Source: Antedon bifida (lineage: Eukaryota; Echinodermata; Crinoidea; Comatulida; Antedonidae). From it: a DNA stretch of 64,000 nucleotides. The position numbers and the translations under genes are program-made. Shown one piece after another: positions 7,828-57,041 of this stretch. The stretch spans positions 17,737,001 to 17,801,000 of the forward strand of contig OY727095.1 of NCBI GenBank assembly GCA_963402885.1. Reading direction: 5' to 3'. A model generated the notes under the pieces. The model did no database searches, was not told the origin of the DNA, and worked only from the letters and a program-made list of their open reading frames with translations. Every line of letters begins with the position of its first letter. Within the stretch, counting starts at the first letter, position 1.

Positions 7828-10800
7828 ATGAATTCTAGCATCAATATACTTCCTTTTTGGCGCCGTTCATCACGACGGTAAGTTTTTTAACCACCACCAG
7901 CCTCTAACTAGCCTCTAGGGTAGCGCCTAGCCTAGGCCTAGCCTAGGCCTAGCCTAGGCTAGTAGGCCTAGGCCCCTAGCTAGGCCGGCCTAAGTAGGCC
8001 TAGCCTGGCCCTAGTAAGGTAAGCCCAGAGGCCTAGTTTTTAGCCGTCTTTGGGCCTAGCCTCGGCCCTAGCCTAGAGAGTACAGTGAGTGTAGCTAGGC
8101 CTACTAGGCCTAGTAGTAGTACTAGTAGTAGGCCTAAATAACTAAATGGCAATGCCTAATAAGGGCCTCAAAAGGCCTCTAGAATAGGCCTAGCTAGGCT
8201 TATTGTAAATAAAAAGGTATTCCTCTATAGGCCTAAATGTATGAATATGAACATAGACTAGCCTAGCCCTAGGCCTATAGTACTGTATGTAGCTAAACTA
8301 GGGCCTGGTTAGGCTAGACTAAGCCTACCTCTCTACTATATAGTCCAGGTAGGCCTACCTAGGCCTAGACTAGTTTAGGCCTAGATAATAGGGCTAGGGC
8401 CTAGCTAGGCCTAAAACTCTGCTCTTCATACATAATGCCTTTCCTGACCCAGCATAGGCCTGGGTTATTTTTTTTATTTCCATTAGCTTTACATCTAGTA
8501 GGCTGTTAGGCCCTAGGCCTACTTAATACTATAGTAATTACTAATAATAGGAATAGAAGCCCATGTATTGTAATTTATTTTCAAATTGAATTTCATCAAA
8601 TAAAACAATGTCTGGATTCATTCTATTTGTACTGTAGCTTTGATCCGCAACTGCAGAAAACAAGTCTGTTGAGGAAGAAGCCAGTAACAAGATCATTCCA
8701 ACCAGATGCCGATCCACTTTCAGCATCAAAAAGAAATACTGTTAATCCAGGTGATTTAGTATTTATGCGGACAATGGAAGGTAACAAGGTAGGAAAAGAT
8801 TCCTAACACATCTTGCAAGTTTCACATTATTATTATCACTATTAATTAACTTTCTTTCAACAACATTTCATTTTATCTAACAAATATTAATTCAATTTCT
8901 TATTAAATAATTGTTTTAAGATCATAAGTACATTCCTGTGTCAAGTTGAATGTGCTTTGGACCATAAAAGAAACGATATGGAAGCTATTGAAATGGAAGC
9001 AGAGAAATTGAGAGAAAAGTATGAACAAAATAAAAACAGCTAAAAGGAACAATTATATTATACAACATTGTGTCCTTATTTTTATAATAGTATCAAAATG
9101 TAATGTGTTAATTGTTATATACCTGAATGTTTTATGTTATTATTATTATTATGTTTATAGAAAAAAAGCAAGTGAAAGGCTAGTAAAAGAGTTTAAGAAA
9201 AGAAACGGAGAGCTGAAGAAAGTATTAAATGAGAAGAAAGTCAGAATGATGGAAGTGTTTACAAATAAAGATGAGGAAATAAAGAAAGTTGGAAATGAAA
9301 AGAAAGATTTACAGAAAGAGTTAGAAGTTTTAAATGCCAAGTAAATGTTGAAAAGTTCATTTGAATACTAAAAATGGAGCTACAGTTATTTATTAAGCTA
9401 ATTACCTATATTTTTTATTTGATAACACTTCGAACATTTTTATTTTTTAGAATGATGGAAGAGTTTAAAAACAAAGATGATGAAATGAAAAGTTTGTTAA
9501 GTGAAAAGAAAGATTTACAGAAAGAGTTAGGAGCTATAAATGCCAAGTAAATATTATTGAAATGTTTATTTTTGTATCTAAGTTTAATATTAATGGAGCA
9601 ACAGTTTATTAGGCTAACCCTATGCAACACATCCAAAATGTTTATCGTAATTTCAGAATGATGGAAGATTCTAGAAACAATAGTGAGGAAATAAAGAAAT
9701 TGTCAAATGACAAGAAAGAACTACAGAAAGAGTTAGAAGCTGTAAATGCCAAGTAAGTATTGAACAGTTGAACTTTTGCAATTATTTATTAAGCTAACCT
9801 TATTTGTTATTTGATTAATTTTGCCAACACATTCAAACATTTTTATCTTAATTTTAGAATGATGGAAGATTCTAGTATCAATAGTGAGGAAATAAAGATA
9901 TTGTCAAAAGAAAAGAAAGAGTTGGAAGCTGTAAATACCAAGTAAGTATTAAAAGTATATCAATTCATCTTTGTAACAAATTTGAATAATAATGGAGCTA
10001 CAATAATCATTTATTAAGCTAGCCCTATATCATTTTCAATACCTCGAACATTTCTATTTCAGGATGATGGAAGAGTTGAAAAATAAAGATGATGAAGTAA
10101 AGAAAGTTGGACATGAAAAGAAAGAGTTAGAAGCTGTAAATGCCCAGTAAGTATTGATCAATTCATGTTTGTAACAAATTTGAATAATAATGGAGCTACA
10201 ATAACCATTTATTAAGCTAGCCCTATATCATTTTCAATACCTCAAACATTTCTATTTCAGGATGATGGAAGAGTTGAAAAATAAAGATGATGAAGTAAAG
10301 AAAGTTGGACATGAAAAGAAAGAGTTAGAAGCTGTAAATGCCCGGTAAGTATTGATCAGTTCATCTCTGTAACATAATTATTTGAATAATAATGGAGCTA
10401 CAATAACCATTTATTAAGCTAGCCCTATATCATTTTCAATACCTTGAACATTTCTATTTCAGGATGATGGAAGAGTTGAAAAATAAAGATGATGAAGTAA
10501 AGAAAGTTGGAAATGAAAAGAAAGAGTTAGAAGCTGTAAATGCCCGGTAAGTATTGATCAGTTCATCTTTGTAACAAATTGGAATATTAATGGAGCTACA
10601 ATAACCATTTATTAAGCTAGCCCTATATCATTTTCAATACCTCGAACATTTCTATTTCAGGATGATGGAAGACTTGAAAAATAAAGATGATGAAGTAAAG
10701 AAAGTTGGAAATGAAAAGAAAGAGTTAGAAGCTGTAAATGCCCAGTAAGTATTGATCAGTTCATCTCTGTAACATAATTATTTGAATAATAATGGAGCTA

Positions 10801-13800
10801 CAATAACCATTTATTAAGCTAGCCCTATATCATTTTCAATACCTTGGACATTTCTATTTCAGGATGATGGAAGACTTGAAAAATAAAGATGATGAAGTAA
10901 AGAAAGTTGGAAATGAAAAGAAAGAGTTAGAAGCTGTAAATGCCCAGTAAGTATTGATCAGTTCATCTTTGTAACAAATTTGAATAATATTGGAGCTACA
11001 ATAATCATTTATTAAGCTAGCCCTATATCATTTTCAATACCTCAAACATTTCTATCTCAGGATGATGGAAGAGTTGAAAAATAAAGATGATGAAGTAAAG
11101 AAAGTTGGATATGAAAAGAAAGAGTTAGAAGCTGTAAATGCCCGGTAAGTATTGATCAGTTCATCTTTGTAACAAATTTGAATAATATTGGAGCTACAAT
11201 AACCATTTATTAGGCTAGCCCTATATCATTTTCAATACCTCAAACATTTCTATCTCAGGATGATGGAAGAGTTGAAAAATAAAGATGATGAAGTAAAGAA
11301 AGTTGGATATGAAAAGAAAGAGTTAGAAGCTGTAAATGCCCGGTAAGTATTGATCAGTTCATCTTTGTAACAAATTGGAATAATAATGGAGCTACAATAA
11401 CCATTTATTAAGCTAGCCCTATATCATTTTCAATACCTCGAACATTTCTATTTCAGAATGATGGAAGACTTGAAAAATAAAGATGATGAAGTAAACAAAG
11501 TTGGAAATGAAAAAAAAGAGTTAGAAGCTGTAAATACCCAGTAAGTATTGATCAGTTCATCTCTGTAACATAATTATTTGAATAATAATGGAGCTACAAT
11601 AATCATTTATTAAGCTAGCCCTATATCATTTTCAATACCTCAAACATTTCTATCTCAGGATGATGGAAGAGTTGAAAAATAAAGATGATGAAGTAAAGAA
11701 AGTTGGAAATGAAAAGAAAGAGTTAGAAGCTGTAAATGCCCAGTAAGTATTGATCAGTTCATCTCTGTAACATAATTATTTGAATAATAATGGAGCTACA
11801 ATAATCATTTATTAAGCTAGCCCTATATCATTTTCAATACCTTGAACATTTCTATTTCAGGATGATGGAAGAGTTGAAAAATAAAGATGATGAAGTAAAG
11901 AAAGTTGGACATGAAAAGAAAGAGTTAGAAGCTGTAAATGCCCAGTAAGTATTGATCAGTTCATCTTTGTAACACATTTTAATAATAATGAAGCTACAAT
12001 AACCATTTATTAAGCTAGCCCTATATCATTTTCAATACCTCAAACATTTCTATTTCAGAATGATGGAAGAGTTGATAAATAAAGATGATGAAGTAAAGAA
12101 AGTTGGACATGAAAAGAAAGAGTTAGAAGCTGTCAATGCCCAGTAAGTATTGATCAGTTCATCTCTGTAACATAATTATTTGAAATAATAATGGAGCTAC
12201 AATAACCATTTATTAAGCTAGCCCTATATCATTTTAAATACCTCGAACATTTCTATTTCAGGATGATGAAAGAGTTAAAAAATAAAGATGATGAAGTAAA
12301 GAAAGTTGGAAATGAAAACAAAGAGTTAGAAGCTGTAAATTCCCAGTAAGTATTGATCAGTTCATCTTTGTAACAAATTTGAATAATAATGAAGCTACAA
12401 TAACCATTTATTAAGCTAGCCCTATATCATTTTCAATACCTCAAACATTTCTATCTCAGGATGATGGAAGAGTTAAAAAATAAAGATGATGAAGTAAAGA
12501 AAGTTGGTCATGAAAAGAAAGAGTTAGAAGCTGTAAATGCCCAGTAAGTATTGATCAGTTCATCTTTGTAACATAATTATTTGAAATAATAATGGAGCTA
12601 CAATAACCATTTATTAAGCTAACACTATATCATTTTCAATACCTTGAACATTTCTATTTCAGGATGACGGAAGACTTGAAAAATAAAGATGATGAAGTAA
12701 AGAAAGTTTTACATGAAAAGAAAGAGTTAGAAGCTGTAAATACCCAGTAAGTATTGATCACTTCATCTTTGTAACATAATTATTTGAATAGTAATGGAGC
12801 TACAATAACAATTTATTAAGCTAACACTATATCATTTTTCAACACATTTTCATTTCAGAATGATGGAAGAGTTTAAAAACAAAGGTGATGAAATAAAGAA
12901 AGTTGGAAATGAAAGGAAAGAGTTACAGAAAGATTTAGAATGTCTAGAAGCTGTAAATGCCAAGTAAATATTATTGAAACGTTTGCTTTTGTATCCAGGT
13001 TTAATAGTAATGGAGCTACAGTTTATTAAGCTAACCATATTTTTGATTTGATAATATTGCAACACCAACATTTTTATCTTAATTTCAGAATGATGGAAGA
13101 TTCTAGAAACAATAGTGAGGAAATAGAGAAATTGTCAAATGAAAAGAAAAAAGTACAGAAAGAGTTAAAAGCTGTAAATGCCAAGTAAGTAACAGTTTTA
13201 TCTTTGACAACTTTTACAGTTACTTATTAAGCTAACCCTATTTGTTATTTGATAATTTTTCAACTCATTCAAACATTTTTATTTTTAATTCAGAATGATG
13301 GAAGAGTTTAAAAACAAAGATGATGAAGTAAAGAAAGTGTTAAGTGAAAGGAAAGATTTGCAGAAAGAGTTTGAATGTCTAGAAGCTGTAAATGCCAAGT
13401 AAATATTCAAAAGTTAAATACTAGGAGCTACAGTAACCATCAATTAAGCTAATGCTATTTTCAACACATCTAACATTATGTGCAATTGTCAATTCAGGCT
13501 GAATGAGAAATATTGCCAACAGAGCAAAGAGAAAAAAGGAATTGAAAAGCTTGTAGAGGAGTTAGAGAAAAAAAATGAGCAGTTGAAGAAAGTTTTGAAA
13601 AAGAGAACAGAATTACTTAATGCTACAAACACTAAGTAAGTATAATGTTTTTATTGAAAAAGCTAACCCCATGTTGTGATAATTCACCACATCCAACATG
13701 CAAAGGATTTGTTAGCTAAATCAATTGATACCATTGAATAAAAAGCTAACCTGATATTTATTGATTATATCATTATTGTCACAACTTGTTTCCACTATTA

Positions 13801-15963
13801 TTATCGTTATGATTATCTTCAACACCAACAATTTCATCATCATCTTCTCATCATAGTCTTCATTATCAACATTCAATACTAATCATAAATGCAACAATAT
13901 TGTTGACATCTTTTTCTCAAAGTTTTTGAAATTACATGTTGTAAAAATAAAAAATATATCTTATAACTTATTAAAATATAATTCAAAACAGATATGAAAG
14001 TAAATATAAGGAAGCAAAGGAACAACTAAACGAAGCCAAGAAGATGTTAAAGAGTAAACAACGTACAGAAAGTGCAAGAAAACAAGGGTATGTGTAGGGT
14101 CCGTACAATAATAACCAAAATAGATCTAACCCCCCCCCCCCCCCCTCCCCCACCCCAGTCGGAGGGTCAACTAATGAATTTAAAATATTATATTTATAAC
14201 GATGAGCTGAATTTAAAAAAAAAAATAGATAAAATGCAAAGGAAATTAGAATAATAACAATTACATGTTAAAGATGTATTGTCCCTTGAAACACAAAAAA
14301 TGAAAAAAAAAATATTCTAAATTTAAATTGGCCATATCAAAGTAATGTTAAAGGTATTCACTTTAAGTCGAAAATTCGAGCCAAAAACAACAAGTTTACG
14401 TAATTAACAGGTAAATTAATTTGATTACATTTCGTCTGGAAAATCATCACAAGCGAAAGTAAACAAAGATTTCAAACCACGATTATGCATTATACATGAT
14501 GCTAATTAGGATTGTTTACAACTCGTCGCGGTTGAGAAGGTGTTTTCACACAGATCGCGAGGAAGTGTTATGATTATGCATACAGAGTAGCCAAACAAGC
14601 GCGTTGCATTATGAGATATGTTTTGATCGAAAACTTTGACTGGAAGTCAAAGTTATTTTTTGAACAAAAAATTGTCTGTATTTCGGTTAAATATTTTTTT
14701 TTTTTACAAATTTTTGGTGAAAGTTAATAACTATTATGATACTTCAAAATGACCCACTTTTTTTCGAAATTAAAAAAAAAAATTTTTTTTTAATTGGTCA
14801 AAGGGACAATACATCTTTAATTACAAGCTAATTCAAAGCAAATCATTCAGGTATTGTTTATTTTTTTAGCTGTGTTGATTACGATCAAAAAGAAAGAGAA
14901 TTAGAAAAGCTCAAGAAACTTTTAAGGAATGAAGAGAATAAGGTTATGGAATTGTTTGAAGAAGTTCAAAGGTAGGATTATCTTATGTCATCACAAGCCC
15001 ATAAATAGGATTCTGATGTTGACTTTTTTTAAAACTGAGAATGCTATTGCTTGGCTTCTTCAAGTGTTATGAAAGAGTGTTCTCATTAACAGATAATTAT
15101 TTTTTATTGTAGGCCTAACAATTTATATAAGCAGGCAATATATTTTCTGATATTTCTGTAAACAAAATGGTAAATTATTTAACTTCTTTACTTTAAAAAA
15201 AAATAGAATTCAGCTATCGGCTCAAACAGATTCAAACCAAGGAAAAGACAAGACAGATGTATTACTGAGTCTCCTGCCAACCGTGAACGTGATCAACCAG
15301 AAGGATCTAAAACCAGTCGACGAGACGAAAACACCAGTGGTCATCGGTCAAGGCGCTTTCGGGGAAGTTTCTCTGATGAGACACAATCCAACCAACTCAC
15401 TGGTTGCTGTCAAAACCATCTTAAATGGCAGTGCAGATAACATCAAAATAGAGGCTCGCACAATGCAACTATGTTCTGCTCACCCATCATTTCCGTTCAT
15501 GTTTGGCGTAGTAAGAGATGATAATAACATCATTCAAATTGTCTCTTCATTTGTTGGAGTTGACAGTTCATCTCTTACTCTTAGAAAAGCAATAAAGAGT
15601 AAATTCGCCAACATGAATAGGAGGTCAATTCTTAACATCCTATTGACAGTATCTGATGGTGTGAAGTTTCTCCACCGGAACAAAATTGCACATAATGACA
15701 TAAAGGCAGAAAACATTCTCCTTTCACATGAAAGTGAAGAATGGATGGGCAAGATTATTGACATGGGTGGAATAACATCACCACTTGTGGAACCACCTGC
15801 TGCTGAAGTAACATCAAGCGACATCTTTGCCCTCTGCTTTGTTATTTGTGAAGTAGCCCAGGCATGCCATTGGCAGCAACTTAATGAGTTGGCTGTGAGA
15901 TGCAAGAAAACTCGACCACCGATTGACGATCTCATCTCTCTTCTATCCAAACTTAATATCTAA
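7828..15963 (+). CDS. Coiled-coil protein kinase, unit 1 copy (28 coding exons, longest rod)
   Basis: Reconstructed spliced gene, not recognised by name. Exons: 7828-7877, 8638-8788, 8921-9018, 9161-9340, 9451-9546, 9657-9752, 9858-9941; fourteen 84-nt exons starting at 10063, 10261, 10463, 10661, 10863, 11061, 11259, 11457, 11659, 11861, 12059, 12262, 12460 and 12663; then 12859-12963, 13089-13184, 13294-13398, 13498-13635, 13992-14087, 14870-14971 and 15207-15963. All have GT-AG borders and sum to 3330 nt, about 1109 residues. Start: first ATG after the TATA promoter (MNSSINILPFWRR). Residues 1-70 are a basic, non-helical head. About 75-858 is a K/E-rich coiled coil, and 859-1109 the kinase exon. 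No signal peptide or membrane span, so probably cytosolic. A regulatory or scaffold kinase with a variable rod is inferred; substrate and pathway are unknown. Poly(A) signals lie at 15965 and 16158. Confidence 0.82.
7900..8525. repeat. AGGCCT/CCTAGG palindromic low-complexity DNA in intron 1 (unit 1)
   Basis: Dense TAGGCCTAG, CCTAGG, AGGCCT and GCTAGGCC words, each self-complementary, filling most of intron 1. Units 3 and 4 carry comparable long versions (41765-42370, 51385-51999), while unit 2 keeps only about 75 bp of it (20395-20470). Length differences point to slippage or recombination inside the tract. Confidence 0.85.
9942..12858 (+). repeat. Exon-intron cassette array: fourteen 84-nt exons at about 200-bp spacing (unit 1)
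   Basis: Each cassette is one intron plus one 84-nt exon, with starts 198-203 bp apart. The exon encodes MMEELKNKDDEVKKVG followed by (N/H/Y)EKKELEAVNAQ plus the split junction codon, 28 residues in all. Introns are as similar as exons, each with a GCTAGCCCTATATCATTTTC segment before a TTTCAG or TCTCAG acceptor. Every exon starts and ends after two bases of a codon, so any number can be added or removed in frame. Hydrophobic residues M, L, V, V, L fall at a/d positions, making each exon four heptads exactly. Confidence 0.93.
14272..14816. mobile_element. TTAA-flanked MITE in intron 26 of unit 1
   Basis: Units 2, 3 and 4 read ACATGTTAATTACAAG here; unit 1 carries 545 extra bases between duplicated TTAA copies (14268-14271 and 14817-14820). 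Ends are inverted: AGATGTATTGTCCCTTG at the left, and the complement of CAAAGGGACAATACATCT at the right. No transposase frame is visible inside. TTAA target choice fits piggyBac- or Kolobok-type transposases; which one is unclear. Confidence 0.85.
15207..15963 (+). other. Kinase-domain exon of the unit 1 gene, domain detail
   Basis: Numbering from the codon at 15283 (V=1): glycine loop IGQGAFGEV 21-29, VAVK lysine K44, helix-C glutamate E57, HPSFPFMFGVV 67-77, catalytic loop HNDIKAEN 137-144, magnesium loop DMG 160-162, and a helix-F-like SDIFALCFVICEV. Catalytic Lys, Glu, both Asp and the Asn are kept, so activity is plausible. The Arg of HRD is replaced by Asn and the Phe of DFG by Met. Only 64 residues follow DMG, so the activation segment and C-lobe are very short and no clear APE is present. 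The four units differ at only a few residues here. Confidence 0.88.
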
Positions 15964-17529
15964 AAATAAAACTCTTACCAGTATAACACATTCATTATGT
16001 TCAAATTCAATAATCATTATTACATTTTATACTGAATCTCTGTTTTAATCATATTTGCAACTTTCAAAATGTGCAATATTTGGATTGTAATAATTATTTA
16101 TAGATTTTTATACAAAGAAATGTATTAAAACAATACGGTATATATATTTTTATGGCAAATAAATATTTTGGTAAAACTTTACTAACAAAATGATATCTAA
16201 AATGTGTTTGTTGTTCGTTTAGACAATATTGGTAGGCCTACTGTAAATCGTTTCGTTGTAAAAACAGAAAGGGTTGCTTTTCGTGACTGATCCTCGGGAA
16301 TTATTGTGCAACCTGATACAGAGACAGTGGTAGTGATGACTGGAGCGGTAATAATGCAAGCTGTTTACATGCTCTTTTTTTATCATGTGCTTCAGTAGTG
16401 TGTGATATCTTAATAACAGATACCTCTGAAAGCTATCGGTTTAACGACACATAGGTTTGAGAGATCACACAAGCACGTCGGTTTTAAGTTTGTAAAGTAC
16501 AGTGCTTATAGTGTGTGATATAACATAAGCCCCTTCTACCTAGTACATTTCCCAAACACTGATTCGAAAAAATATTGTCAATACATTCGCTTTTATTTGC
16601 ACACCTAAACTAAATAAAAGAACGTACTGGCAGTAACCCGAGCTCCGCCTTAATATGTGGTTATATAATAATTCGCATAGGATGAGTAAGTATAATAAAA
16701 GCACAACACTCTTCCCTAATAAAAGTACTCTGACAAATTATTTTAAAAAAAAATTGTCAAGAATAAAATTATTGATTTGTTTATGCATTTGATTTCGCCA
16801 TGCAAACCTTCAAACAATTATCATTGATTTTGTTATACATGAAGTATTCCTTCACTTTAAAATATCTGTAAGCCCAAAATGAAAGCAATCCTGGATATGG
16901 GACTTTACGAACATAAAAGACGCTGTGAATATTAATCTAGGGTGCACATCATAAATTGACAACATGCATGAGAGGGACATGCACGTTGAACTCTGTCAGT
17001 CAGTCGGCAGTTTAAAACATTTCAATGATAACATATGAATTAGTAATTTATAGAATTAAGATGTGAAGTATTGTAATAAAACAACTGCGCTTACGGACCT
17101 GAAATCAACAATAAAAATGTGCACATGGTGGTGGTAGTCGAAATTAGATGATGAACGCGCCACTAAAGTATACATTACCAAACTATATATTTTTCATGGT
17201 GTATTTTATTTAATATTTGTTTGTTTCTTTGTGTGAGAGCTTTGTTTTTAATTATGCTCAGAAATAGTGATGTGTATGCAATAAGTCACATTTACCTATA
17301 GATAGAATAAAAAAGTATTTAGGCAATCAACAAAATATTAGTTATTTGTCATGGTAATTTTTTTTTCAGTTTTATTGTAATAAATCTAATAAGTATCAGA
17401 AATTAAAATATTAATATATGGTAATTTAACATGCCATTTTAATGATAATGTATGTGCCAGAATATTATTATCTTAATCAATTATATTGGCTTAGCAGAAA
17501 TAAAGCTTGCTGTTAATAAAATTCCTGTC
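15964..17529. other. 3' flank of unit 1, no supported gene
   Basis: AATAAA at 15965-15970 (immediately after the stop) and 16158-16163 are candidate poly(A) signals. The rest is AT-rich DNA shared with the other units. A 64-codon frame that is open in unit 3 (47222-47416) is interrupted here by a TGA near 16286, so it is not counted as a gene. Confidence 0.6.
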
Positions 17530-20101
17530 ACAATAATTAACAATAAAACAATGATGGATTTAAAAACACTTTATCATCATAATTATGTACGTAACCATAT
17601 TTTGTTTTTAGTATAGTAGACCTAGATTTATTGGTGCTTGCATGTTTGTAATTTAGAAAATATTTTATGATTATTTACGATAAATGTACTTTTATAAATA
17701 GAAAAAATGTCTTCTCTATTCTGTGTGTTTTGCACATTTTGTAAGGTGAATTGTTTCAGATGGAAATCAAGCAAGTCACCAGAAATTAGTTCCAGGACCG
17801 ACGTGTGCAGAGTATGACGCTACTACTAGTACGATATTAATTATTAAAATGTAATTATATTTTAATTTCATATTGTTCCGGAAAACTTCTGATGTGTGTG
17901 CAACTTTTTATATGACTAGACTGAGGATGACTCTCTAAATGTTATGGTGATTGGTTACTCTATAGTCACTGCCAATATAATGTTCTGCTACTCTAAAAAA
18001 AACAATGGCGCCACCTATCATCAAGTTAGTTTGCAAAAAAAATAGGCAAAGCAAATAAATCGTCTTTTGTGGCAATAATAGACTAGTCCAGATTTTCATA
18101 TGCTGTAGGCATTTCATGTTAAAAGCGAATGTTTTAGGGTAGTTTTTAGGGTGCTGGATTGGTTTACCCGACTCAATTTTTATATCTCCACCATTTCAGA
18201 CTTATTTTGGTTTATAATATAACTAATTGACTTTTAAGTTGTCAAATTTCTTTCAACGGTGACGGAACGTTTTGCCGAACGCCACTTCGCCGCCCGGAAA
18301 TTTTTTCGATAACTGTAATCATCATCATTTTGTCCGCCCGAATGGCATCCAAGTTATTTTTCTTGCACCGCCTAGTGGCGCTATACAATCTTTGCTTTTC
18401 TTCCATTTATACGGTTGCCACCCCGCTTATCTTCCCATTGGATCTTCATCCAATTCTCCAGGCCTCCCTGCCACTGATTCATGTTGTAGAAAAAAAAAGG
18501 GGCAAAAAGGGATCTTCATCCAAATACACATGTTCGGCTAGGGTAGCGCTTTCCCATTGGATCTTCATCCAATTATCCTGGCCTCCCTGCTGTTGCTTCA
18601 TGTGGAAAAAAAATGGATCTTCATCCAAACCATAATAGCAAAATGCGAATTGCTGAAAATAACATTAATAAATGGTCGTCACAAAATAATATGCGTATAA
18701 ACGAAAAAAAACCTGTATAAATATAGAAAAATAGCGAAAGATGCGATTTCAGTAACAACAACCAAAAAAAAAGTTGTCTTCTTCCCTGGGCAAACACAGA
18801 TAGATGGCCTAGCGTTTATGATGATCGGAAGTTACAAGTACCACCTTCATCGGGGACCTGACGTTCACATTCAACGCAAACATATACATATATTCATGGC
18901 TGCAGTCGCGTGTGCAAATTTGAGTTACCGTACATCTTCCAATAGTAACCCACACTCTAATAGTAACTCCCCTCTAATTAGTAACCCACCTTATAAGTCA
19001 ATCTATAATAATAACCCACTACTCTAATAGTAACCCATGGGGTTACTATTAGTTGTAATAGTAACCCATGGGGGTTACTATTAGAGTCACAAAAACTATT
19101 GAAAAAATGACTGGTCGTTTATGATGCAGCCGTATTTCGAAAACAAGGAGATAATGCATGTTGATCTCGGGAGTGGGGGAGGATTGAGTGTTTTTGAGTT
19201 CATAAAATAAAGTTAGAGTTCAACCAAATTTGTTTATTTGTACTGATTTATTATTTTGCTATGAGTTGCTGACCGGAAACGTTGAGGATGGGCTACTATT
19301 TTCAGGTGCCTAATTTAAGATTAGTAATAGTAACCCACTACTCTAATAGTAACCCCCTTCTAAAAAGTAATAGTAACCCACCCTAAAAAACAATCAAAGA
19401 ATAATAACCAAGGGTTACAATTAGATTTACGGTAGTGTTTACCGACCGACCAACCGACCGCCGACATAGTGAGCTGTAGACTAAAAATAAGCTATGATCG
19501 TTTTGCTATTAGCTATAAGGAAGTGTAAGTTCCGGCGAACTACGGGTGCCATTTATCATAATTTATTTAATTGTACGTGCGAGAGTACCATTTCCGGCCG
19601 GCCATCTAGAAGGGGTGTCCTTTAAAATTAATGTCATATTATATTGTTACCGTATATAAGTGTGTTATTTTTTATACTATATTTCAATATCTATTTTTGT
19701 GATAAGTGAGCAATGCAATTTCCAGTATATTTGGACAATAAAAGTTATCTGTATCTGTAAAAATTTGCTTCACCACATAGCCCACAATTTTCTTTTTTTT
19801 AATCACGTATTCACACTTATACACTACTTTGTTTATGTTTCATGGCAACAATTTCGTACTGCGCGCGTATCTGCTACTTGGTTTTACGTCCTCTGTCACC
19901 GGATCATTCCAGTAGCACATTAAATTTGATAACACGCCTCAATAATATGAATTAATAACAATAGTAAAAATTACTAGAATTAAAGGAATGAGTTATACTA
20001 ATGATATATACTAATACTACAGAATTTGAATTAATTGATTAATAAGATAATCAATATAGTTTTTTTGTAAAGCAAACAATGGGTTTATGACGTCGACTGT
20101 A
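17530..20101. other. Upstream flank of unit 2, no supported gene
   Basis: Same content as the unit 1 flank: GGATCTTCATCCAA cluster (about 18440-18630), TAATAGTAACCC repeats and the palindrome. Here the palindrome is partly duplicated (19021-19086), giving two AATAGTAACCCATGG...TTACTATTAG hairpins in succession. Confidence 0.6.
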
Positions 20102-20225
20102 GTGCGTATTTAGAACATAAATCCGGACACGCGACATTGTTTTTATGACGTACAAGTGTGGCACGCACACTGAAATGTATAAAAGGCACCCGAAATCGGA
20201 GCTCAGGCGCGCCTCATATCAGTCG
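20102..20225 (+). promoter_or_regulatory. Promoter of unit 2 kinase gene
   Basis: TATAAAA at 20178-20184. A TGACGTC site lies just upstream of this interval (about 20088-20094) and a TGACGTA within it (about 20146). A 4-bp GCGC insertion separates TATA from the initiator-like TCAGTC, compared with unit 1. Confidence 0.6.
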
Positions 20226-20314
20226 TCAGAATTGTTTTTTCTGGTTTTAAATACGACGAATTAATTTACCTTTACGCATCCTAAATATTTGTATTTATAC
20301 GTCTAACTAGCAAT

Positions 20315-36531: not shown

Positions 36532-36536
36532 TAAGT

Positions 36537-40627: not shown

Positions 40628-40719
40628 TTGATGTTAAAATGTTACAGAAATTGTTATTGTTATATTGAATTTTGTTTGTTATTTTTGTAGTGGTTTAAGA
40701 TTATGAGGTGATGTGGGGG

Positions 40720-40913: not shown

Positions 40914-40918
40914 TAAGT

Positions 40919-41460: not shown

Positions 41461-41610
41461 GTTTATGACGTCGACTGTAGTGCGTATTTAGAACATAAAT
41501 CCGGACACGCGACATTGTTTTTATGACGTACAAGTGTGGCACGCACTCTGAAATGTATAAAAGGCACCCGAAATCGGAGCTCAGGCCTCATATCAGTCGT
41601 CAGAATTGTT
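41461..41610 (+). promoter_or_regulatory. Promoter of unit 3 kinase gene
   Basis: CRE-like TGACGTC (about 41466) and TGACGTA (about 41524), TATAAAA at 41556-41562 and TCAGTC near 41593. About 5 kb of copia and more than 7 kb of other transposon DNA now lie upstream in this unit, yet the core promoter block itself is undisturbed. Confidence 0.6.
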
Positions 41611-41689
41611 TTTTCTGGTTTTAAATACGACGAATTAATTTACCTTTACGCATCCTAAATATTTGTATTTATACGTATAAGCTAGCAAT

Positions 41690-46985: not shown

Positions 46986-48558
46986 AAATAAAACTCTTAC
47001 CAGTATAACACATTATGTTCAAATTCAATAATCATTATTACATTTTATACTGAATCTCTGTTTTAATCATATTTGCAACTTTCAAAATGTGCAATATTTG
47101 GATTGTACTAATTATTTATAGATTTTTATACAAAGAAATGTATTAAAACAATACGGTATATATATTTTTATGGCAAATAAATATTTTGGTGAAACTTTAC
47201 TATCAAAATGATATCTAAAATGTGTTTGTTGTTCGTTTAGACAATATTGGTAGGCCTACTGTAAATCGTTTCGTTGTAAAAACAGAAAGGGTTGCTTTTC
47301 GTGACGGATCCTCGCGAATTATTGCGCAACCTGATACAGAGACAGTGGTAGTGATGACTGGAGCGGTAATAATGCAAGCTGTTTACATGCTCTTTTTTTA
47401 TCATGTGCTTCAGTAGTGTGTGATATCTTAATAACAGATACCTCTGAAAGCTATCGGTTTAACGACACATAGGTTTGAGAGATCACACAAGCACGTCGGT
47501 TTTAAGTTTGTAAAGTACAGTGCTTATAGTGTGTGATATAACATAAGCCCCTTCTACCTAGTCTAAGTGTCTGAGTACATTTCCCAAACTGATTTGAAAA
47601 AATATTGTCAATACGTTCGCTTTTATTTGCACACCTAAACTAAATAAAAGAACGTACTGGCAGTAACCCGAGCTCCGCCTTAATATGTGGTTATATAATA
47701 ATTCGCATAGGATGAGTAAGTATAATAAAAGCACAACACTCTTCCCTAATAAAAGTACTCTGACAAATTATAAAAAAAAAAAATTGTCAAGAATAAAATT
47801 ATTGATTTGTTTATGCATTTGATTTCGCCATGCAAACCTTCAAACAATTATCATTGATTTTGTTATACATGAAGTATTCCTTCACTTTAAAATATCTGTA
47901 AGCCCAAAATGAAAGCAATCCTGGATATGGGACTTTACGAACATAAAAGACGCTGTGAATATTAATCTAGGGTGCACATCATAAATTGACAACATGCATG
48001 AGAGGGACATGCACGTTGAACTCTGTCAGTCAGTCGGCAGTTTAAAACATTTCAATGATAACATATGAATTAGTAATTTATAGAATTAAGATGTGAAGTA
48101 TTGTAATAAAACAACTGCGCTTACGGACCTGAAATCAACAATAAAAATGTGCACATGGTGGTGGTAGTCGAAATTAGATGATGAACACGCCACTAAAGTA
48201 TACATTACCAAACTATATATTTTTCATGGTGTATTTTATTTAATATTTGTTTGTTTCTTTGTGTGAGAGCTTTGTTTTTAATTATGCTCAGAAATAGTGA
48301 TGTGTATGCAATAAGTCACATTTACCTATAGATAGAATAAAAAAGTATTTAGGCAATCAACAAAATATTAGTTATTTGTCATGGTAATTTTTTTTTCAGT
48401 TTTATTGTAATAAATCTAATAAGTATCAGAAATTAAAATATTAATATATGGTAATTTACATGCCATTTTAATGATAATGTATGTGCCAGAATATTATTAT
48501 CTTAATCAATTATATTGGCTTAGCAGAAATAAAGCTTACTGTTAATAAAATTCCTGTC
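46986..48558. other. 3' flank of unit 3, no supported gene
   Basis: AATAAA directly follows the stop. A 64-codon frame (47222-47416) is open here but broken by TGA in units 1 and 4 and by the 568-bp insertion in unit 2, so I treat it as chance. Confidence 0.6.
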
Positions 48559-51080
48559 ACAATAATTAACAATAAAACAATGATGGATTTAAAAACACTT
48601 TATCATCATAATTATGTACGTAACCATATTTTGTTTTTAGTATAGTAGACCTAGATTTATTGGTGCTTGCATGTTTGTAATTTAGAAAATATTTTATGAT
48701 TATTTACGATAAATGTACTTTTATAAATAGAAAAAATGTCTTCTCTATTCTGTGTGTTTTGCACATTTTGTAAGGTGAATTGTTTCAGATGGAAATCAAG
48801 CAAGTCACCAGAAATTAGTTCCAGGACCGACGTGTGCAGTATGACGCTACTACTAGTACGATATTAATTATTAAAATGTAATTATATTTTAATTTCATAT
48901 TGTTCCGGAAAACTTCTGATGTGTGTGCAACTTTTTATATGACTAGACTGAGGATGACTCTCTAAATGTTATGGTGATTGGTTACTCTATAGTCACTGCC
49001 AATATAATGTTCTGCTACTCCATGCTAAACCAATGGCGCCACCTATCATCAAGTTAGTTTGCAAAAAAAATAGGCAAAGCAAATAAATCGTCTTTTGTGG
49101 CAATAATAGACTAGTCCAGATTTTCATATGCTGTAGGCATTTCATGTTAAAAGCGAATGTTTTAGGGTAGTTTTTAGGGTGCTGGATTGGTTTACCCGAC
49201 TCAATTTTTAGATCTCCACCATTTCAGACTTATTTTGGTTTATAATATAACTAATTGACTTTTAAGTTGTCAAATTTCTTTCAACGGTGACGGAACGTTT
49301 TGCCGAACGCCACTTCGCCGACAATTCACCGACCGGAAATTTTTTCGATAACTTTATTCATCATCATTTTGTCCGCCCGAATGGCATCCAAGTTATTTTT
49401 CTTGCACCGCCTAGTGGCGCTATACAATCTTTGCTTTTCTGCCATTTATACGGTTGCCACCCCGCTTATCTTCCCATTGGATCTTCATCCAATTCTCCAG
49501 GCCTCCCTGCCACTGATTCATGTTGTAGAAAAAAAAAGGGGCAAAAAGGGATCTTCATCCAAATACACATGTTCGGCTAGGGTAGCGCTTTCCCATTGGA
49601 TCTTCATCCAATTATCCTGGCCTCCCTGCTGTTGCTTCATGTGGAAAAAAAATGGATCTTCATCCAAACCATAATAGCAAAATGCGAATTGCTGAAAATA
49701 ACATTAATAAATGGTCGTCACAAAATAATATGCGTATAAACGAAAAAAAAACTGTATAAATATAGAAAAATAGCGAAAGATGCGATTTCAGTAACAACAA
49801 CCAAAAAAAAAAGTTGTCTTCTTCCCTGGGCAAACACAAATAGATGGCCTAGCGTTTATGATGATCGGAAGTTACAAGTACCACCTTCATCGGGGACCTG
49901 ACGTTCACATTCAACGCAAACATAATACATATATTCATGGCTGCAGTCGCGTGTGCAAATTTGAGTTACCGTACATCTTCCAATAGTAACCCACACTCTA
50001 ATAGTAACTCCCCTCTAATTAGTAACCCACCTTATAAGTCAATCTATAATAATAACCCACTACTCTAATAGTAACCCATGGGGGTTACTATTAGAGTCAC
50101 AAAAACTATTGAAAAAATGACTGGTCGTTTATGATGTAGCCGTATTTCGAAAACAAGGAGATAATGCATGTTGATCTCGGGAGTGGGGGAGGATTGAGTG
50201 TTTTTGAGTTCATAAAATAAAGTTAGAGTTCAACCAAATTTGTTTATTTGTACTGATTTATTATTTTGCTATGAGTTGCTGACCGGAAACGTTGAGGATG
50301 GGCTACTAGTACTATTTTCAGGTGCCTAATTTAAGATTAGTAATAGTAACCCACTACTCTAATAGTAACCCCCTTCTAATAAGTAATAGTAACCCACCCT
50401 AAAAAACAATCAAAGAATAATAACCAAGGGTTACAATTAGATTTACGGTAGTGTTTACCGACCGACAAACCGACCGCCGACATAGTGAGCTGTAGACTAA
50501 AAATAAGCTATGATCGTTTTGCTATTAGCTATAAGGAAGTGTAAGTTCCGGCGAACTACGGGTGCCATTTATCATAATTTATTTAATTGTACGACGTGCG
50601 AGAGTACCATTTCCGGCCGGCCATCTAGAAGGGGTGTCCTTTAAAATTAATGTCATATTATATTGTTACCGTATAGTGTGTTATTTTTTATACTATATTT
50701 CAATATCTATTTTTGTGATAAGTGAACAATGCAATTTCCAGTTTATTTGGGTATCTGTAAAATTTTGCTTCACCACATAGCCCACAATTTTCTTTTTTTT
50801 AATCACGTATTCACACTTATACACTACTTTGTTTATGTTTCATGGCAACAATTTCGTACTGCGCGCGTATCTGCTACTTGGTTTTACGTCCTCTGTCACC
50901 GGATCAGTCCAGTAGCACATTAAATTTGATAACACGCCTCAATAATATGAATTAAAAACAATAGTAAAAATTACTAGAATTAAAGGAATGAGTTATACTA
51001 ATGATATATACTAATACTACAGAATTTGAATTAATTGATTAATAAGATTATCAATATAGTTTTTTTGTAAAGCAAACAAT
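48559..51080. other. Upstream flank of unit 4, no supported gene
   Basis: Has the GGATCTTCATCCAA cluster (about 49475-49670), the TAATAGTAACCC repeats, the uninterrupted palindrome at 50062-50097 and the empty copia target GTGTAAGTTCCGG near 50540. This is the cleanest reference for the insertions in unit 3. Confidence 0.6.
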
Positions 51081-51215
51081 GAGTTTATGACGTCGATGTA
51101 GTGCGTATTTAGAACATAAATCCGGACACGCGACATTGTTTTTATGACGTACAAGTGTGGCACGCACACTGAAATGTATAAAAGGCACCCGAAATCGGAG
51201 CTCAGGCCTCATATC
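51081..51215 (+). promoter_or_regulatory. Promoter of unit 4 kinase gene
   Basis: CRE-like TGACGTC (about 51088) and TGACGTA (about 51145), TATAAAA at 51177-51183 and TCAGTC near 51214. It carries the GTCGATGTAG variant shared with unit 1; units 2 and 3 have GTCGACTGTAG. Confidence 0.6.
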
Positions 51216-51310
51216 AGTCGTCAGAATTGTTTTTTCTGGTTTTAAATACGACGAATTAATTTACCTTTACGCATCCTAAATATTTGTATTTATACGTCTA
51301 AGCTAGCAAT

Positions 51311-54300
51311 ATGAATTCTAGCATCAATATACTTCCTTTTTGGCGCCGTTCATCACGACGGTAAGTTTTTTAACCACCACCAGCCTCTAACTAGCCTCTA
51401 GGGTAGCGCCTAGCCTAGGCCTAGCCTAGGCCTAGCCTAGGCTAGTAGGCCTAGGCCCCTAGCTAGGCCGGCCTAAGTAGGCCTAGCCTGGCCCTAGTAA
51501 GGTAAGCCCAGAGGCCTAGTTTTTAGCCGTCTTTGGGCCTAGCCTCGGCCCTAGCCTAGAGAGTACAGTGAGTGTAGCTAGGCCTAGGCCTAGTAGTAGT
51601 ACTAGTAGTAGGCCTAAATAACTAAATGGCAATGCCTAATAAGGGCCTCAAAAGGCCTCTAGAATAGGCCTAGCTAGGCTTATTGTAAATAAAAAGGTAT
51701 TCCTCTATAGGCCTAAATGTATGAATATGAACATAGACTAGCCTAGCCCTAGGCCTATAGTACTGTATGTAGCTAAACTAGGGCCTGGTTAGGCTAGACT
51801 AAGCCTACCTCTCTACTATATAGTCCAGGTAGGCCTACCTAGGCCTAGACTAGTTTAGGCCTAGATAATAGGGCTAGGGCCTAGCTAGGCCTAAAACTCT
51901 GCTCTTCATACATAATGCCTTTCCTGACCCAGCATAGGCCTGGGTTATTTTTTTTATTTCCATTAGCTTTACATCTAGTAGGCTGTTAGGCCCTAGGCCT
52001 ACTTAATACTATAGTAATTACTAATAATAGGAATAGAAGCCCATGTATTGTAATTTATTTTCAAATTGAATTTCATCAAATAAAACAATGTCTGGATTCA
52101 TTCTATTTGTACTGTAGCTTTGATCCGCAACTGCAGAAAACAAGTCTGTTGAGGAAGAAGCCAGTAACAAGATCATTCCAACCAGATGCCGATCCACTTT
52201 CAGCATCAAAAAGAAATACTGTTAATCCAGGTGATTTAGTATTTATGCGGACAATGGAAGGTAACAAGGTAGGAAAAGATTCCTAACACATCTTGCAAGT
52301 TTCACATTATTATTATCACTATTAATTAACTTTCTTTCAACAACATTTCATTTTATCTAACAAATATTAATTCAATTTCTTATTAAATAATTGTTTTAAG
52401 ATCATAAGTACATTCCTGTGTCAAGTTGAATGTGCTTTGGACCATAAAAGAAACGATATGGAAGCTATTGAAATGGAAGCAGAGAAATTGAGAGAAAAGT
52501 ATGAACAAAATAAAAACAGCTAAAAGGAACAATTATATTATACAACATTGTGTCCTTATTTTTATAATAGTATCAAAATGTAATGTGTTAATTGTTATAT
52601 ACCTGAATGTTTTATGTTATTATTATTATTATGTTTATAGAAAAAAAGCAAGTGAAAGGCTAGTAAAAGAGTTTAAGAAAAGAAACGGAGAGCTGAAGAA
52701 AGTATTAAATGAGAAGAAAGTCAGAATGATGGAAGTGTTTACAAACAAAGATGAGGAAATAAAGAAAGTTGGAAATGAAAAGAAAGATTTACAGAAAGAG
52801 TTAGAAGTTTTAAATGCCAAGTAAATGTTGAAATGTTCATTTGAATACTAAAAATGGAGCTACAGTTATTTATTAAGCTAATTACCTATATTTTTTATTT
52901 GATAACACTTCGAACATTTTTATTTTTTAGAATGATGGAAGAGCTTAAAAACAAAGATGATGAAATGAAAAGTTTGTTAAGTGAAAAGAAAGATTTACAG
53001 AAAGAGTTGGGAGCTATAAATGCCAAGTAAATATTATTGAAATGTTTATTTTTGTATCTAAGTTTAATATTAATGGAGCAACAGTTTATTAGGCTAACCC
53101 TATGCAACACATCCAAAATGTTTATCGTAATTTCAGAATGATGGAAGATTCTAGAAACAATAGTGAGGAAATAAAGAAATTGTCAAATGACAAGAAAGAA
53201 CTACAGAAAGAGTTAGAAGCTGTAAATGCCAAGTAAGTATTGAACAGTTTTATCTTAACTTTTGCAATTATTTATTAAGCTAACCTTATTTGTTATTTGA
53301 TAATTTTGCCAACACATTCAAACATTTTTATCTTAATTTTAGAATGATGGAAGATTCTAGTATCAATAGTGAGGAAATGAAGATATTGTCAAAAGAAAAG
53401 AAAGAGTTGGAAGCTGTAAATACCAAGTAAGTATTAAAAGTATATCAATTCATCTTTGTAACAAATTTGAATAATAATGGAGCTACAATAACCATTTATT
53501 AAGCTAACACTATATCATTTTCAATACCTTGAACATTTCTATTTCAGAATGATGGAAGAGTTGAAAAATAAAGATGATGAAGTAAAGAAAGTTGGACATG
53601 AAAAGAAAGAGTTAGAAGCTGTAAATTCCCAGTAAGTATTGATCAGTTCATCTTTGTAACAAATTTGAATAATAATGGAGCTACAATAACCATTTATTAA
53701 GCTAGCCCTATATCATTTTCAATACCTCAAACATTTCTATTTCAGAATGATGGAAGAGTTGATAAATAAAGATGATGAAGTAAAGAAAGTTGGACATGAA
53801 AAGAAAGAGTTAGAAGCTGTCAATGCCCAGTAAGTATTGATCAGTTCATCTCTGTAACATAATTATTTGAAATAATAATGGAGCTACAATAACCATTTAT
53901 TAAGCTAGCCCTATATCATTTTCAGTACCTCGCTCATTTCTATTTCAGGATGATGGAAGAGTTAAAAAATAAAGATGATGAAGTAAAGAAAGTTGGAAAT
54001 GAAAACAAAGAGTTAGAAGCTGTAAATTCCCAGTAAGTATTGATCAGTTCATCTTTGTAACAAATTTAAATAATAATGAAGCTACAATAACCATTTATTA
54101 AGCTAGCCCTATATCATTTTCAATACCTCAAACATTTCTATCTCAGGATGATGGAAGAGTTAAAAAATAAAGATGATGAAGTAAAGAAAGTTGGTCATGA
54201 AAAGAAAGAGTTAGAAGCTGTAAATGCCCAGTAAGTATTGCTCAGTTCATCTTTGTAACATAATTATTTGAAATAATAATGGAGCTACAATAACCATTTA

Positions 54301-57041
54301 TTAAGCTAACACTATATCATTTTCAATACCTTGAACATTTCTATTTCAGGATGACGGAAGACTTGAAAAATAAAGATGATGAAGTAAAGAAAGTTATACA
54401 TGAAAAGAAAGAGTTAGAAGCTGTAAATACCCAGTAAGTATTGATCACTTCATCTTTGTAACATAATTATTTGAATAGTAATGGAGCTATTAAGCTAACA
54501 ATATATAATTTTTCAACACATTTTCATTTCAGAATGATGGAAGAGTTTAAAAACAAAAATGATGAAATAAAGAAATATTTAGAATGTCTAGAAGCTGTAA
54601 ATGCCAAGTAAATATTATTGAAATGTTTGCTTTTGTATCTAGGTTTAATAGTAATGAAGCTACAGTTTATTAAGCTAACCATATTTTTGATTTGATAATA
54701 TTGCAACACCAACATTTTTATCTTAATTTCAGAATGATGGAAGATTCTAGAAACAATAATGAGGAAATAGAGAAATTGTCAAATGAAAAGAAAAAAGTAC
54801 AGAAAGAGTTAAAAGCTGTAAATGCCAAGTAAGTAACAGTTTTATCTTTGACAACTTTTACAGTTACTTATTAAGCTAACCCTATTTGTTATTTGATAAT
54901 TTTTCAACTCATTCAAACATTTTTATTTTTAATTCAGAATGATGGAAGAGTTTAAAAAAAAAGATGATGAAGTAAAGAAAGTGTTAAGTGAAAGGAAAAA
55001 TTTGCAGAAAGAGTTTGAATGTCTAGAAGCTGTAAATGCCAAGTAAATATTCAAAAGTTAAATACTAGGAGCTACAGTAACCATCAATTAAGCTAATGCT
55101 ATTTTCAACACATCTAACATTATGTGCAATTGTCAATTCAGGCTGAATGAGAAATATTGCCAACAGAGCAAAGAGAAAAAAGGAATTGAAAAGCTTGTAG
55201 AGGAGTTAGAGAAAAAAAATGAGCAGTTGAAGAAAGTTTTGAAAAAGAGAACAGAATTACTTAATGCTACAAACACTAAGTAAGTATAATGTTTTTATTG
55301 AAAAAGCTAACCCCATGTTGTGATAATTCACCACATCCAACATGCAAAGGATTTGTTAGCTAAATCAATTGATACCATTGAATAAAAAGCTAACCTGGTA
55401 TTTATTGATTATATCATTATTGTCACAACTTGTTTCCACTATTATTATCGTTATGATTATCTTCAACACCAACAATTTCATCATCATCTTCTCATCATAG
55501 TCTTCATTATCAACATTCAATACTAATCATAAATGCAACAATATTGTTGACATCTTTTTCTCAAAGTTTTTGAAATTACATGTTGTAAAAATAAAAAATA
55601 TATCTTATAACTTATTAAAATATAATTCAAAACAGATATGAAAGTAAATATAAGGAAGCAAAGGAACAACTAAACGAAGCCAAGAAGATGTTAAAGAGTA
55701 AACAACGTACAGAAAGTGCAAGAAAACAAGGGTATGTGTAGGGTCCGTACAATAATAACCAAAATAGATCTAACCCCCCAGTCGGAGGGTCAACTAATGA
55801 ATTTAAAATATTATATTTATAACGATGAGCTGAATTTAAAAAAAAAAAAATAGATAAAATGCAAAGGAAATTAGAATAATAACAATTACATGTTAATTAC
55901 AAGCTAATTCAAAGCAAATCATTCAGGTATTGTTTATTTTTTTTAGCTGTGTTGATTACGATCAAAAAGAAAGAGAATTAGAAAAGCTCAAGAAACTTTT
56001 AAAGAATGAAGAGAATAAGGTTATGGAATTGTTTAAAGAAGTTCAAAGGTAGGATTATCTTATGTCATCACAAGCCCATAAATAGGATTCTGATGTTGAC
56101 TTTTTTAAAAACTGAGAATGCTATTGCTTGGCTTCTTCAAGTGTTATGAAAGAGTCTCCTCATTAACAGATAATTATTTTTTATTGTAGGCCTAACAATT
56201 TATATAAGCAGGCAATATATTATCTGATATTTCTGTAAACAAAATGGTAAATTATTTATCTTCTTTACTTTAAAAAAAAAATAGAATTCAGTTATCGGCT
56301 CAAACAGATTCAAACCAAGGAAAAGACAAGACAGATGTATTACTGAGTCTCCTGCCAACCGTGAACGTGATCAACCAGAAGGATCTAAAACCAGTCGACG
56401 AGGCGAAAACACCAGTGGTCATCGGTCAAGGCGCTTTCGGGGAAGTTTCTCTGATGAGACACAATCCAACCAACTCACTGGTTGCTGTCAAAACCATCTT
56501 AAATGGCAATGCAGATAACATCAAAATAGAGGCTCGCACAATGCAACTATGTTCTGCTCACCCATCATTTCCGTTCATGTTTGGCGTAGTAAGAGATGAT
56601 AATAACATCATTCAAATTGTCTCTTCATTTGTTGGAGTTGACAGTTCATCTCTTACTCTTAGAAAAGCAATAAAGAGTAAATTCGCCAACATGAATAGGA
56701 GGTCAATTCTTAACATCCTATTGACAGTATCTGATGGTGTGAAGTTTCTCCACCGGAACAAAATTGCACACAATGACATAAAGGCAGAAAACATTCTCCT
56801 TTCACATGAAAGTGAAGAATGGATGGGCAAGATTATTGACATGGGTGGAATAACATCACCACTTGTGGAACCACCTGCTGCTGAAGTAACATCAAGCGAC
56901 ATCTTTGCCCTCTGCTTTGTTATTTGTGAAGTAGCCCAGGCATGCCATTGGCAGCAACTTAATGAGTTGGCTGTGAGATGCAAGAAAACTCGACCACCGA
57001 TTGACGATCTCATCTCTCTTCTATCCAAACTTAATATCTAA
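51311..57041 (+). CDS. Coiled-coil protein kinase, unit 4 copy (19 coding exons)
   Basis: Exons: 51311-51360, 52118-52268, 52401-52498, 52641-52820, 52931-53026, 53137-53232, 53343-53426, 53548-53631, 53746-53829, 53949-54032, 54147-54230, 54350-54433, 54533-54607, 54733-54828, 54938-55042, 55142-55279, 55636-55731, 55947-56048 and 56285-57041. They sum to 2544 nt, about 847 residues, in frame. Five 84-nt cassettes. The exon at 54533 is 75 nt instead of 105 because of an in-frame 30-nt loss, which removes ten residues and shifts the heptad register. Kinase changes from unit 1: DEAK for DETK and NGNADN for NGSADN. All catalytic residues and the HND/DMG substitutions are shared. Confidence 0.82.

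Follow-up and report, generated by a model that had tools for sequence, protein, structure and literature searches.

Genes A–D belong to a young cluster of kinase genes, nearly identical to one another, in which a long predicted rod is assembled from small repeated exons. They probably represent an expanding family of coiled-coil kinases in which the length of the rod drifts through unequal exchange of frame-neutral exon units. In the window (the whole 64,000-nucleotide stretch of DNA analysed), self-BLAST delimits four duplicated units, each with one of the genes. The units are about 9–12 kb in size, the insert not counted, and about 89–99% identical to one another per aligned piece. Transposon insertions lie between B and C, at about 28624–40914. 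As modelled, all four genes splice into a single open frame with one layout, in which short phase-2 exons arranged in an array encode most of the coiled-coil rod and one kinase exon follows, and positions 7828 and 57041 are exactly the gene A ATG and the gene D stop.

5076..58396, no strand assigned: array of four duplicated units with genes A–D (self-BLAST)
7828..15963, + strand: gene A, 28 coding exons, 1109 aa (spliced open frame)
20315..24933, + strand: gene B, 773 aa, 8 cassettes (spliced open frame)
41690..46985, + strand: gene C, 762 aa, 8 usable cassettes (spliced open frame)
51311..57041, + strand: gene D, 847 aa, 11 cassettes (spliced open frame)

In gene A a short N-terminal part is followed by 20 cassettes, three more coiled-coil exons and the kinase exon. 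Cassette totals in A, B, C and D are 20, 8, 8 and 11, and the predicted rods are 759, 423, 412 and 497 residues. Such rods would be about 60 to 115 nm long, with that of gene A about 113 nm if fully helical. An earlier note on this DNA had counted 14, 2, 4 and 5 homogeneous 84-nt exons with the same split-codon phase at both ends, and the gene models return just these numbers, with phase 2 at both ends and AG/GT borders. Its description of the exons as nearly identical is also apt (in whole codons, the 25 comprise 15 distinct DNA sequences and 14 distinct peptides), and the arrays are, as it proposed, a tandem repeat of whole exons within coding sequence. Though the cassette search imposed AG and GTAAGT/GTAAAT borders, a 198–203 bp exon-plus-intron unit was also recovered by TRF and by a repeat finder without a border condition. 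Chance is ruled out as the source of the array, since the gene models agree with both repeat finders.

9451..9941, + strand: gene A leading edge cassettes of 96, 96 and a divergent 84 nt (gene model)
10063..12746, + strand: gene A, 14 homogeneous 84-nt phase-2 cassettes of 28 residues each (gene model and repeat finder)
12859..13398, + strand: gene A trailing edge cassettes of 105, 96 and 105 nt (gene model)
22113..22399, + strand: gene B, 2 homogeneous 84-nt cassettes (gene model)
43505..43592 (end approximate), + strand: gene C dead cassette, donor and exon end lost
43876..44557, + strand: gene C, 4 homogeneous 84-nt cassettes (gene model)
53548..54433, + strand: gene D, 5 homogeneous 84-nt cassettes (gene model)
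54533-54607, + strand: gene D shortened cassette, 75 nt (gene model)

Each gene has one extra, divergent 84-nt cassette (MMEDSSIN type). There are three 96-nt cassettes (32 residues) in each of A, B and D and two in C, and two 105-nt cassettes (35 residues) in each of A and B and one in each of C and D. The proposed step of 28 residues therefore fits the 84-nt class, but steps of 32 and 35 residues also occur. The open frame of gene C requires that the dead cassette be skipped, and skipping it keeps the frame.

That each 84-nt exon encodes four heptads stands as to length; the core is marginal. In the best heptad register the a places are L, V, K and N and the d places M, K, V and L, with K and N thus in core places; positions 12, 15 and 22 of a cassette mostly carry V, I, L or M. 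When the 28-mer is tiled, 211 of 20000 residue permutations reach the same heptad power, and 12 of 20000 do so for the tiled 35-mer. In all four proteins the period-3.5 signal of the complete rod is stronger than in any of 1000 shuffles, a test which the tiling inflates. Hydrophobic heptad periodicity, as expected of a coiled-coil rod, is thus present, though marginal for the 28-residue cassette. A separate idea, that heptad-perfect 28-residue tiling enabled amplification, is unsupported: at locus L023 the 96-nt cassette occurs ten times, beside one of 75 nt.

The search for further members covered this genome (315.6 Mb, 27 contigs), which in gene style and transposons looks like that of an animal. 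Seventeen kinase exons lie at C8:17.73–18.34 Mb, with diverged copies and fragments elsewhere. Over 21 loci 241 cassettes were counted, 8–20 per gene in the C8 cluster and 5–11 in each of five paralogs that are more diverged. The phase is 2-2 in every accepted cassette, and the donors listed are mostly GTAAGT or GTAAAT; since acceptance demanded AG/GT borders and an open frame, that no broken cassettes appear is in part built into the search. A tblastn check gave extra cassette places in gene C (one), L017 (ten, two with stops), L026 (one), L022 (one, in two pieces) and L027 (six, four of which then read as canonical 105-nt exons). Whole frames are open at 12 of the 20 loci tested (4/4 genes A–D and 8/16 others); L023 is among them, but with a non-canonical n2 border under the gene A exon plan. 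Six loci (L014, L016, L019, L021, L022 and L025) are interrupted, and L024 and L026 do not fit that plan. Every 84-nt cassette is within the C8 cluster, and the five diverged paralogs have 32- and 35-residue cassettes plus only two of 31 residues and one of 25. The 28-residue cassette looks like a recent derivative of the 32-residue one, a form shorter by 12 nt that would have spread in the chromosome-8 cluster.

Judged from substitution patterns, the kinase exon is under purifying selection: dN/dS is 0.10–0.40 over 21 pairs, 0.19–0.26 where dS is above 0.5, and the constraint holds across dS up to 0.58. In A–D alone, pooled values for three blocks are 0.10, 0.80 and 0.88, with too few changes to be informative. 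The cassettes are weakly constrained (pN/pS 0.54–0.78). In the 25 homogeneous cassettes of the window, divergence is as large in the exon as in the intron (0.052 and 0.055 per base), and because of this amino-acid constraint is invisible in them. Pooled from six non-independent pairs, the constant exons and first cassette have 0.59% substitutions and no indels, against 1.22% and 75 indel events in adjacent non-coding DNA. The kinase thus stays while the rod varies, from 8 to 20 cassettes in the cluster, as the earlier note had it.

Array differences between genes come as blocks. L010 has one 84-84-105 triple more than L009 and L012, and the block 'afgh' is common to A and D, being four consecutive units in A, where nine more units precede it. 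The closest match of an internal 84-nt unit is in another gene for 85 of 95 units and in the same gene for 2, with 8 ties. Units of one gene are slightly more alike (mean identity 0.922) than units of different genes (0.905), and therefore some change is local to a gene. Symmetric exons can, as had been supposed, be gained and lost in frame, given phase 2 at both ends. Unequal exchange within or between genes would then add or remove blocks of rod, leaving the frame intact because the exon-plus-intron units are alike, about 200 bp and frame-neutral; both this process and the direction of change are inferred. The length would drift because the rod is only loosely constrained.

The kinase exons are:

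15207..15963, + strand: gene A kinase exon, matching Pkinase (PF00069) at E 9.7e-22, with Lys, Glu, HND, Asn and DMG and a shortened activation segment
24177..24933, + strand: gene B kinase exon (gene model)
46229..46985, + strand: gene C kinase exon (gene model)
56285..57041, + strand: gene D kinase exon (gene model)

The PF00069 profile scores 78.1 bits, above its cut-off of 31.7, over profile positions 6–143 of 263. K, E, HND, N and the Asp of DMG are invariant across six aligned copies, and we take these to be the catalytic Lys, Glu, HxD, Asn and DxG. No APE motif, and so no complete activation segment, is found in the cluster kinase. From DMG to SD there are about 20 residues, where L042 and two L043 copies have about 50, and the activation segment is about 30 residues shorter than in relatives from the same genome. 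The domain could be a pseudokinase. Sequence search against solved structures gives many kinase families with similar scores, and for that reason the kinase group is left unplaced; the one structure model made, by AlphaFold for the kinase exon, gave no usable fold (mean pLDDT 35.6). A C11 gene, L041 (47% identity), resembles the cluster in its C-terminal HND kinase and in upstream frames that, judged by eye, are coiled-coil-like. It differs in having no 84-nt cassette array in the 4 kb read, and in a longer activation segment, which runs to its APE at the end of the stretch. The rod probably oligomerises the protein and acts as a stalk with the kinase at its tip, and activity is probably governed by clustering or placement and not by activation-loop phosphorylation.

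A bolder version, rather unlikely, makes the cluster a standing collection of stalks of many lengths that bear near-identical kinases. Frame-neutral coiled-coil exons prone to recombination would keep it variable, and the kinases would be controlled by where they are placed or clustered, since most of the activation loop is gone. If true, it would offer a naturally made length series with which to test coiled-coil length in signalling. Conflict with pathogens might favour new rod and copy-number variants, as in immune-type diversifying clusters. Interrupted copies beside intact ones and cassettes common to several genes are in keeping with this, and it is compatible with drift by unequal exchange. 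However, there is no excess of amino-acid change (kinase dN/dS is below 1 in 21 of 21 pairs, and the cassette pN/pS is that given above), and Pfam finds nothing outside the kinase in gene B at E 0.01; the idea is accordingly judged unlikely.

Quite unlikely, too, is a splicing device that yields many rod lengths per gene by skipping symmetric exons, though it also is compatible with drift. Any subset of the accepted cassettes could be skipped in frame, one must be skipped in gene C, and brown-algal phase-2 leucine-rich repeat (LRR) exon arrays are, in the cited part of the source, alternatively spliced (PMC11378527). However, no class of weak donors is seen among the mostly GTAAGT or GTAAAT donors, and exon symmetry is no pointer to splicing because gain and loss at the DNA level need it equally. 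A similarly low probability attaches to the molecular ruler of the earlier note, which thought the locus built to vary: selection would have given each paralog a rod length that keeps the kinase at a fixed distance, each cassette adding about 4 nm. The near-identical kinases of A–D do have rods of different lengths, and coiled-coil kinases such as ROCK2 have been proposed as rulers, in the portion of the paper cited (PMC5082667). There the ROCK2 rod keeps its length over long times, but here 8–20 cassettes go with nearly identical kinases, the step is inconstant (28, 32 or 35) and no target length is evident. Among the paralogs compared, length is not conserved while sequence diverges; it is instead the most variable trait of genes whose kinase exons are 98–100% identical to that of gene A. 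The ruler is rejected as the main reading because length is unconserved among paralogs and the step is unfixed. Least probable is a mostly neutral tandem repeat or pseudogene cluster with no protein function, for which several interrupted copies and the equal divergence of cassette exon and intron speak, against kinase constraint at dS up to 0.58, the open frames of all of A–D and the lack of exon indels beside 75 in non-coding DNA.

A cluster of intact kinase genes whose main difference is the length of the rod amounts to a natural experiment on whether length matters, since coiled-coil length is usually conserved, according to the section cited (PMC5082667). A kinase with catalytic residues but about 30 fewer activation-segment residues poses a clear biochemical question. 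The cluster also extends to coiled coils the phase-2 repeat-exon arrays that in ciliates and brown algae encode leucine-rich repeats.

Varying by small repeated frame-neutral exons is known from other gene families, with precedents, in so far as the sources are drawn on here, in the LRR exons of Tetrahymena and brown algae and in titin PEVK. To our knowledge titin and nebulin involve no tandem gene family and no heptads, and ROCK has its kinase domain N-terminal. Like the cluster, titin and nebulin have short repeated exons, but in giant muscle proteins: the cited extracts describe gain and loss of PEVK exons that alter titin length in evolution (PMC6469411) and nebulin repeat regions skipped by splicing (PMC7617313). 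ROCK2 shares the combination of kinase and long coiled coil, its rod of 107 nm being close to the roughly 113 nm of gene A if fully helical. In the portion cited, however, that length is conserved over about 650 My while sequence diverges (PMC5082667), whereas the cluster has variable length, a C-terminal kinase and a shortened activation segment. The earlier note knew of no described family with this layout. No description of this coiled-coil kinase family was found in the open-licence PMC literature; its exon layout, however, has close parallels. The cluster has the shared phase and variable number of an exon-shuffled repeat family, with three main length classes (84, 96 and 105 nt) and not one, and the closest exon is often in another gene (85/95 internal 84-nt units). 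In brown-algal ROCO genes, as far as the cited text goes, 72-bp phase-2 LRR exons form shuffled arrays (PMC11378527). A single repeat per phase-2 exon, array shuffling and a signalling protein are thus in common, but ROCO is an LRR GTPase, with alternative splicing reported. Tetrahymena LRR genes, in the excerpt relied on, have 1–51 exons, each exactly 90 bp long, and more than 96% of the introns are in phase 2; some of the genes are fused to protein kinase domains, and the exons are often closest to those of other genes, for which unequal crossing over was proposed (PMC6564038). Though these are LRR and not coiled-coil genes, in a ciliate and on a genome-wide scale, with direct tandem whole-gene duplications only about 1.6% (PMC6564038), they share with the cluster arrays of equal short phase-2 exons, variable in number and with closest exons across genes.

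Self-comparison of the window resolves four duplicated units, and in each of them exons with AG/GT borders can be joined into one open frame:

7828–15963, gene A, spliced open frame of 1109 aa
20315–24933, gene B, spliced open frame of 773 aa
41690–46985, gene C, spliced open frame of 762 aa
51311–57041, gene D, spliced open frame of 847 aa

The order of exons is the same in all four: e1–e4, the array of cassettes (short phase-2 coiled-coil exons), three further coiled-coil exons and a single 757-nt kinase exon. Intron phase, from exon lengths, is 2 after e1, 0 after e2 and 2 from e3 on. The homogeneous 84-nt exons number 14, 2, 4 and 5 in A, B, C and D, the same numbers that an earlier note had drawn from the sequence. 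To these every gene adds a single divergent 84-nt cassette and several 96- and 105-nt ones (a 75-nt cassette occurs once among the window genes, in D). All cassettes together come to 20, 8, 8 and 11, gene C having beyond its 8 an additional one whose donor is lost. The exon-3 donor of gene A is followed 22 nt downstream by an in-frame stop (9019–9043), and the sequence past the donor is identical in B, C and D; a retained intron would thus yield a protein of ~107 residues without rod or kinase.

The spacers and flanks carry elements of their own:

2492–4489, minus strand, left of the array, 665-aa, probably gag-like frame that contains a DUF1759 domain
28895–35671, B–C spacer, Pao-type LTR retrotransposon; the frames inside it are on the minus strand and one encodes a Pao peptidase domain
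36707–40627, B–C spacer, Copia-type element, single 1306-aa frame with gag, integrase and reverse transcriptase domains
60804–62181, right of the array, 20-bp minisatellite of 69 copies

The Pao-type insertion is recent; its direct terminal repeats of ~713 bp are 99.7% identical. Motifs like TAATAGTAACCC, with at most one mismatch, occur 49 times in the window against 0.41 expected, clustered in spacers at 6498–6956, 18940–19423, 28513–28625, 36331–36429, 49981–50439 and 62969–63410. The clusters are possibly an old mobile element copied along with the duplications.

The kinase gene family is real. In the 315.6-Mb genome, where the window occupies C8:17737001–17801000, the kinase exon has at least 27 DNA matches, at least 17 of them at C8:17.73–18.34 Mb with 98–100% identity (two partial) and at least 8 elsewhere (C8 at 9.56, 10.5 and 13.97 Mb; C1, C12, C14, C16); a remnant in two pieces lies at C8:18.38 Mb. 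Twenty stretches with matches, L009–L028, were retrieved and cassettes counted wherever the exon plan was readable. Accepted cassettes number 20 in L010 and L013, 17 in L009, L012 and L016, 13 in L019, 11 in L021 and L023, 9 in L014, L015 and L024, 8 in L011, L020 and L022, 6 in L026 and 5 in L025, with 2 in L027 and 4 more there in a later look. No accepted array was found in L017, L018 or L028; L017 is damaged yet has 10 cassette-like places, and the other two look like remnants. Over 21 loci the sum is 241 cassettes: 111 of 84 nt, 74 of 96, 50 of 105, 3 of 93, 2 of 75 and 1 of 87. Cassettes of 84 nt are absent from L023–L027, the five more diverged paralogs; most likely, then, a 12-nt deletion (residues LQKE) turned the 32-residue form into the 28-residue one, which went on to spread in the cluster.

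Under A's exon plan the frame is uninterrupted at 12 of 20 loci tested (A–D, L009–L016, L019–L026), namely A–D, L009–L013, L015, L020 and, with a non-canonical n2 border, L023. It is interrupted in L014, L016, L019, L021, L022 and L025, and L024 and L026 do not fit the plan.

When the six pairs among A–D, which are not independent, are pooled, the constant exons and first cassette show 0.59% differences and 0 indels; adjoining non-coding sequence shows 1.22%, with 75 indel events. These copies are too close for dN/dS among them to be informative. With paralogs of the same genome included (seven sequences, 21 pairs), dN/dS of the kinase exon is 0.10 to 0.40, and 0.19 to 0.26 for pairs at dS >0.5. 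Cassettes are under looser constraint than the kinase exon: pN/pS is 0.54 (96 nt) and 0.74 (105 nt) in the more diverged paralogs, and 0.78 (84 nt), 0.69 (96 nt) and 0.71 (105 nt) over all distinct cassettes. In the window's 25 homogeneous cassettes divergence is the same for exon and intron (0.052 and 0.055 per base), so amino-acid constraint is not visible there.

The kinase exon matches PF00069 (E 9.7e-22, profile positions 6–143 of 263), and six kinase copies all share the same Lys, Glu, HND, Asn and DMG. Compared with the more distant kinases of L042 and two copies in L043, the family's kinase segment lacks APE and has ~20 rather than ~50 residues from DMG to SD; the activation segment of L041 is also longer than the family's. 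L041 is the closest relative outside the family (47%), with coiled-coil-like frames upstream, judged by eye, and no 84-nt cassettes within the 4 kb read. The kinases of L041, L042 and L043 come from a set of 50 further kinase matches in the same genome (33–47% identity, E up to 1e-10), some in small clusters, e.g. C12:20.49–20.50 Mb. Sequence searches against solved structures gave no kinase group placement.

The predicted rods of A–D are 48–49% D, E, K and R, with no proline, and in each of the four predicted proteins the period-3.5 signal lies above all 1000 shuffles. A within-module permutation test was reached by 211/20000 for the 28-mer and 12/20000 for the 35-mer. Residue number modulo 7 is 0 in 161 of 241 cassettes, 4 in 76, 3 in 3 and 1 in 1; a length of 7n+4 would be consistent with a stutter in a coiled coil. 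Were they helical throughout, the rods of A, B, C and D would be 113, 63, 61 and 74 nm long at the usual rise per residue. The N-terminal part and rod of gene B had no Pfam match at E 0.01.

Among cluster genes the edge cassettes are much alike in most, and the middle of the array is variable. At a 97% cut-off the middle units read abcbddcebafghi in A and afghl in D, and L010 has an extra 84-84-105 triple relative to L009 and L012. The best match of an internal unit is in another gene for 85 of 95, in the same gene for 2 and tied for 8; mean unit identity is 0.922 within genes versus 0.905 between them. The units compared are those that are neither over-long nor of the divergent 84-nt type, from loci other than L017 and L023–L027. 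Such sharing of units across genes, with the differences between arrays, fits block duplication, deletion and between-gene exchange atop whole-gene duplication, though the exact process is inferred. The earlier note had read the array as a molecular ruler or spacing device, or at least an exon-level minisatellite; the ruler reading finds no support, and the data are best accounted for by a rod of loosely constrained length, which would be altered by exchange between frame-neutral exon units.

A literature search of open-licence PMC papers found the repeat-exon layout for no coiled-coil kinase family. Coiled-coil spacers, including that of ROCK2, are conserved in length (PMC5082667). The layout of the cassette exons is a known kind: Tetrahymena LRR genes have equal short phase-2 exons in varying number (PMC6564038), brown-algal ROCO genes have phase-2 exons of 72 bp encoding one LRR each (PMC11378527), exon gain and loss alter the length of titin PEVK (PMC6469411), and repeat regions are skipped in nebulin (PMC7617313).
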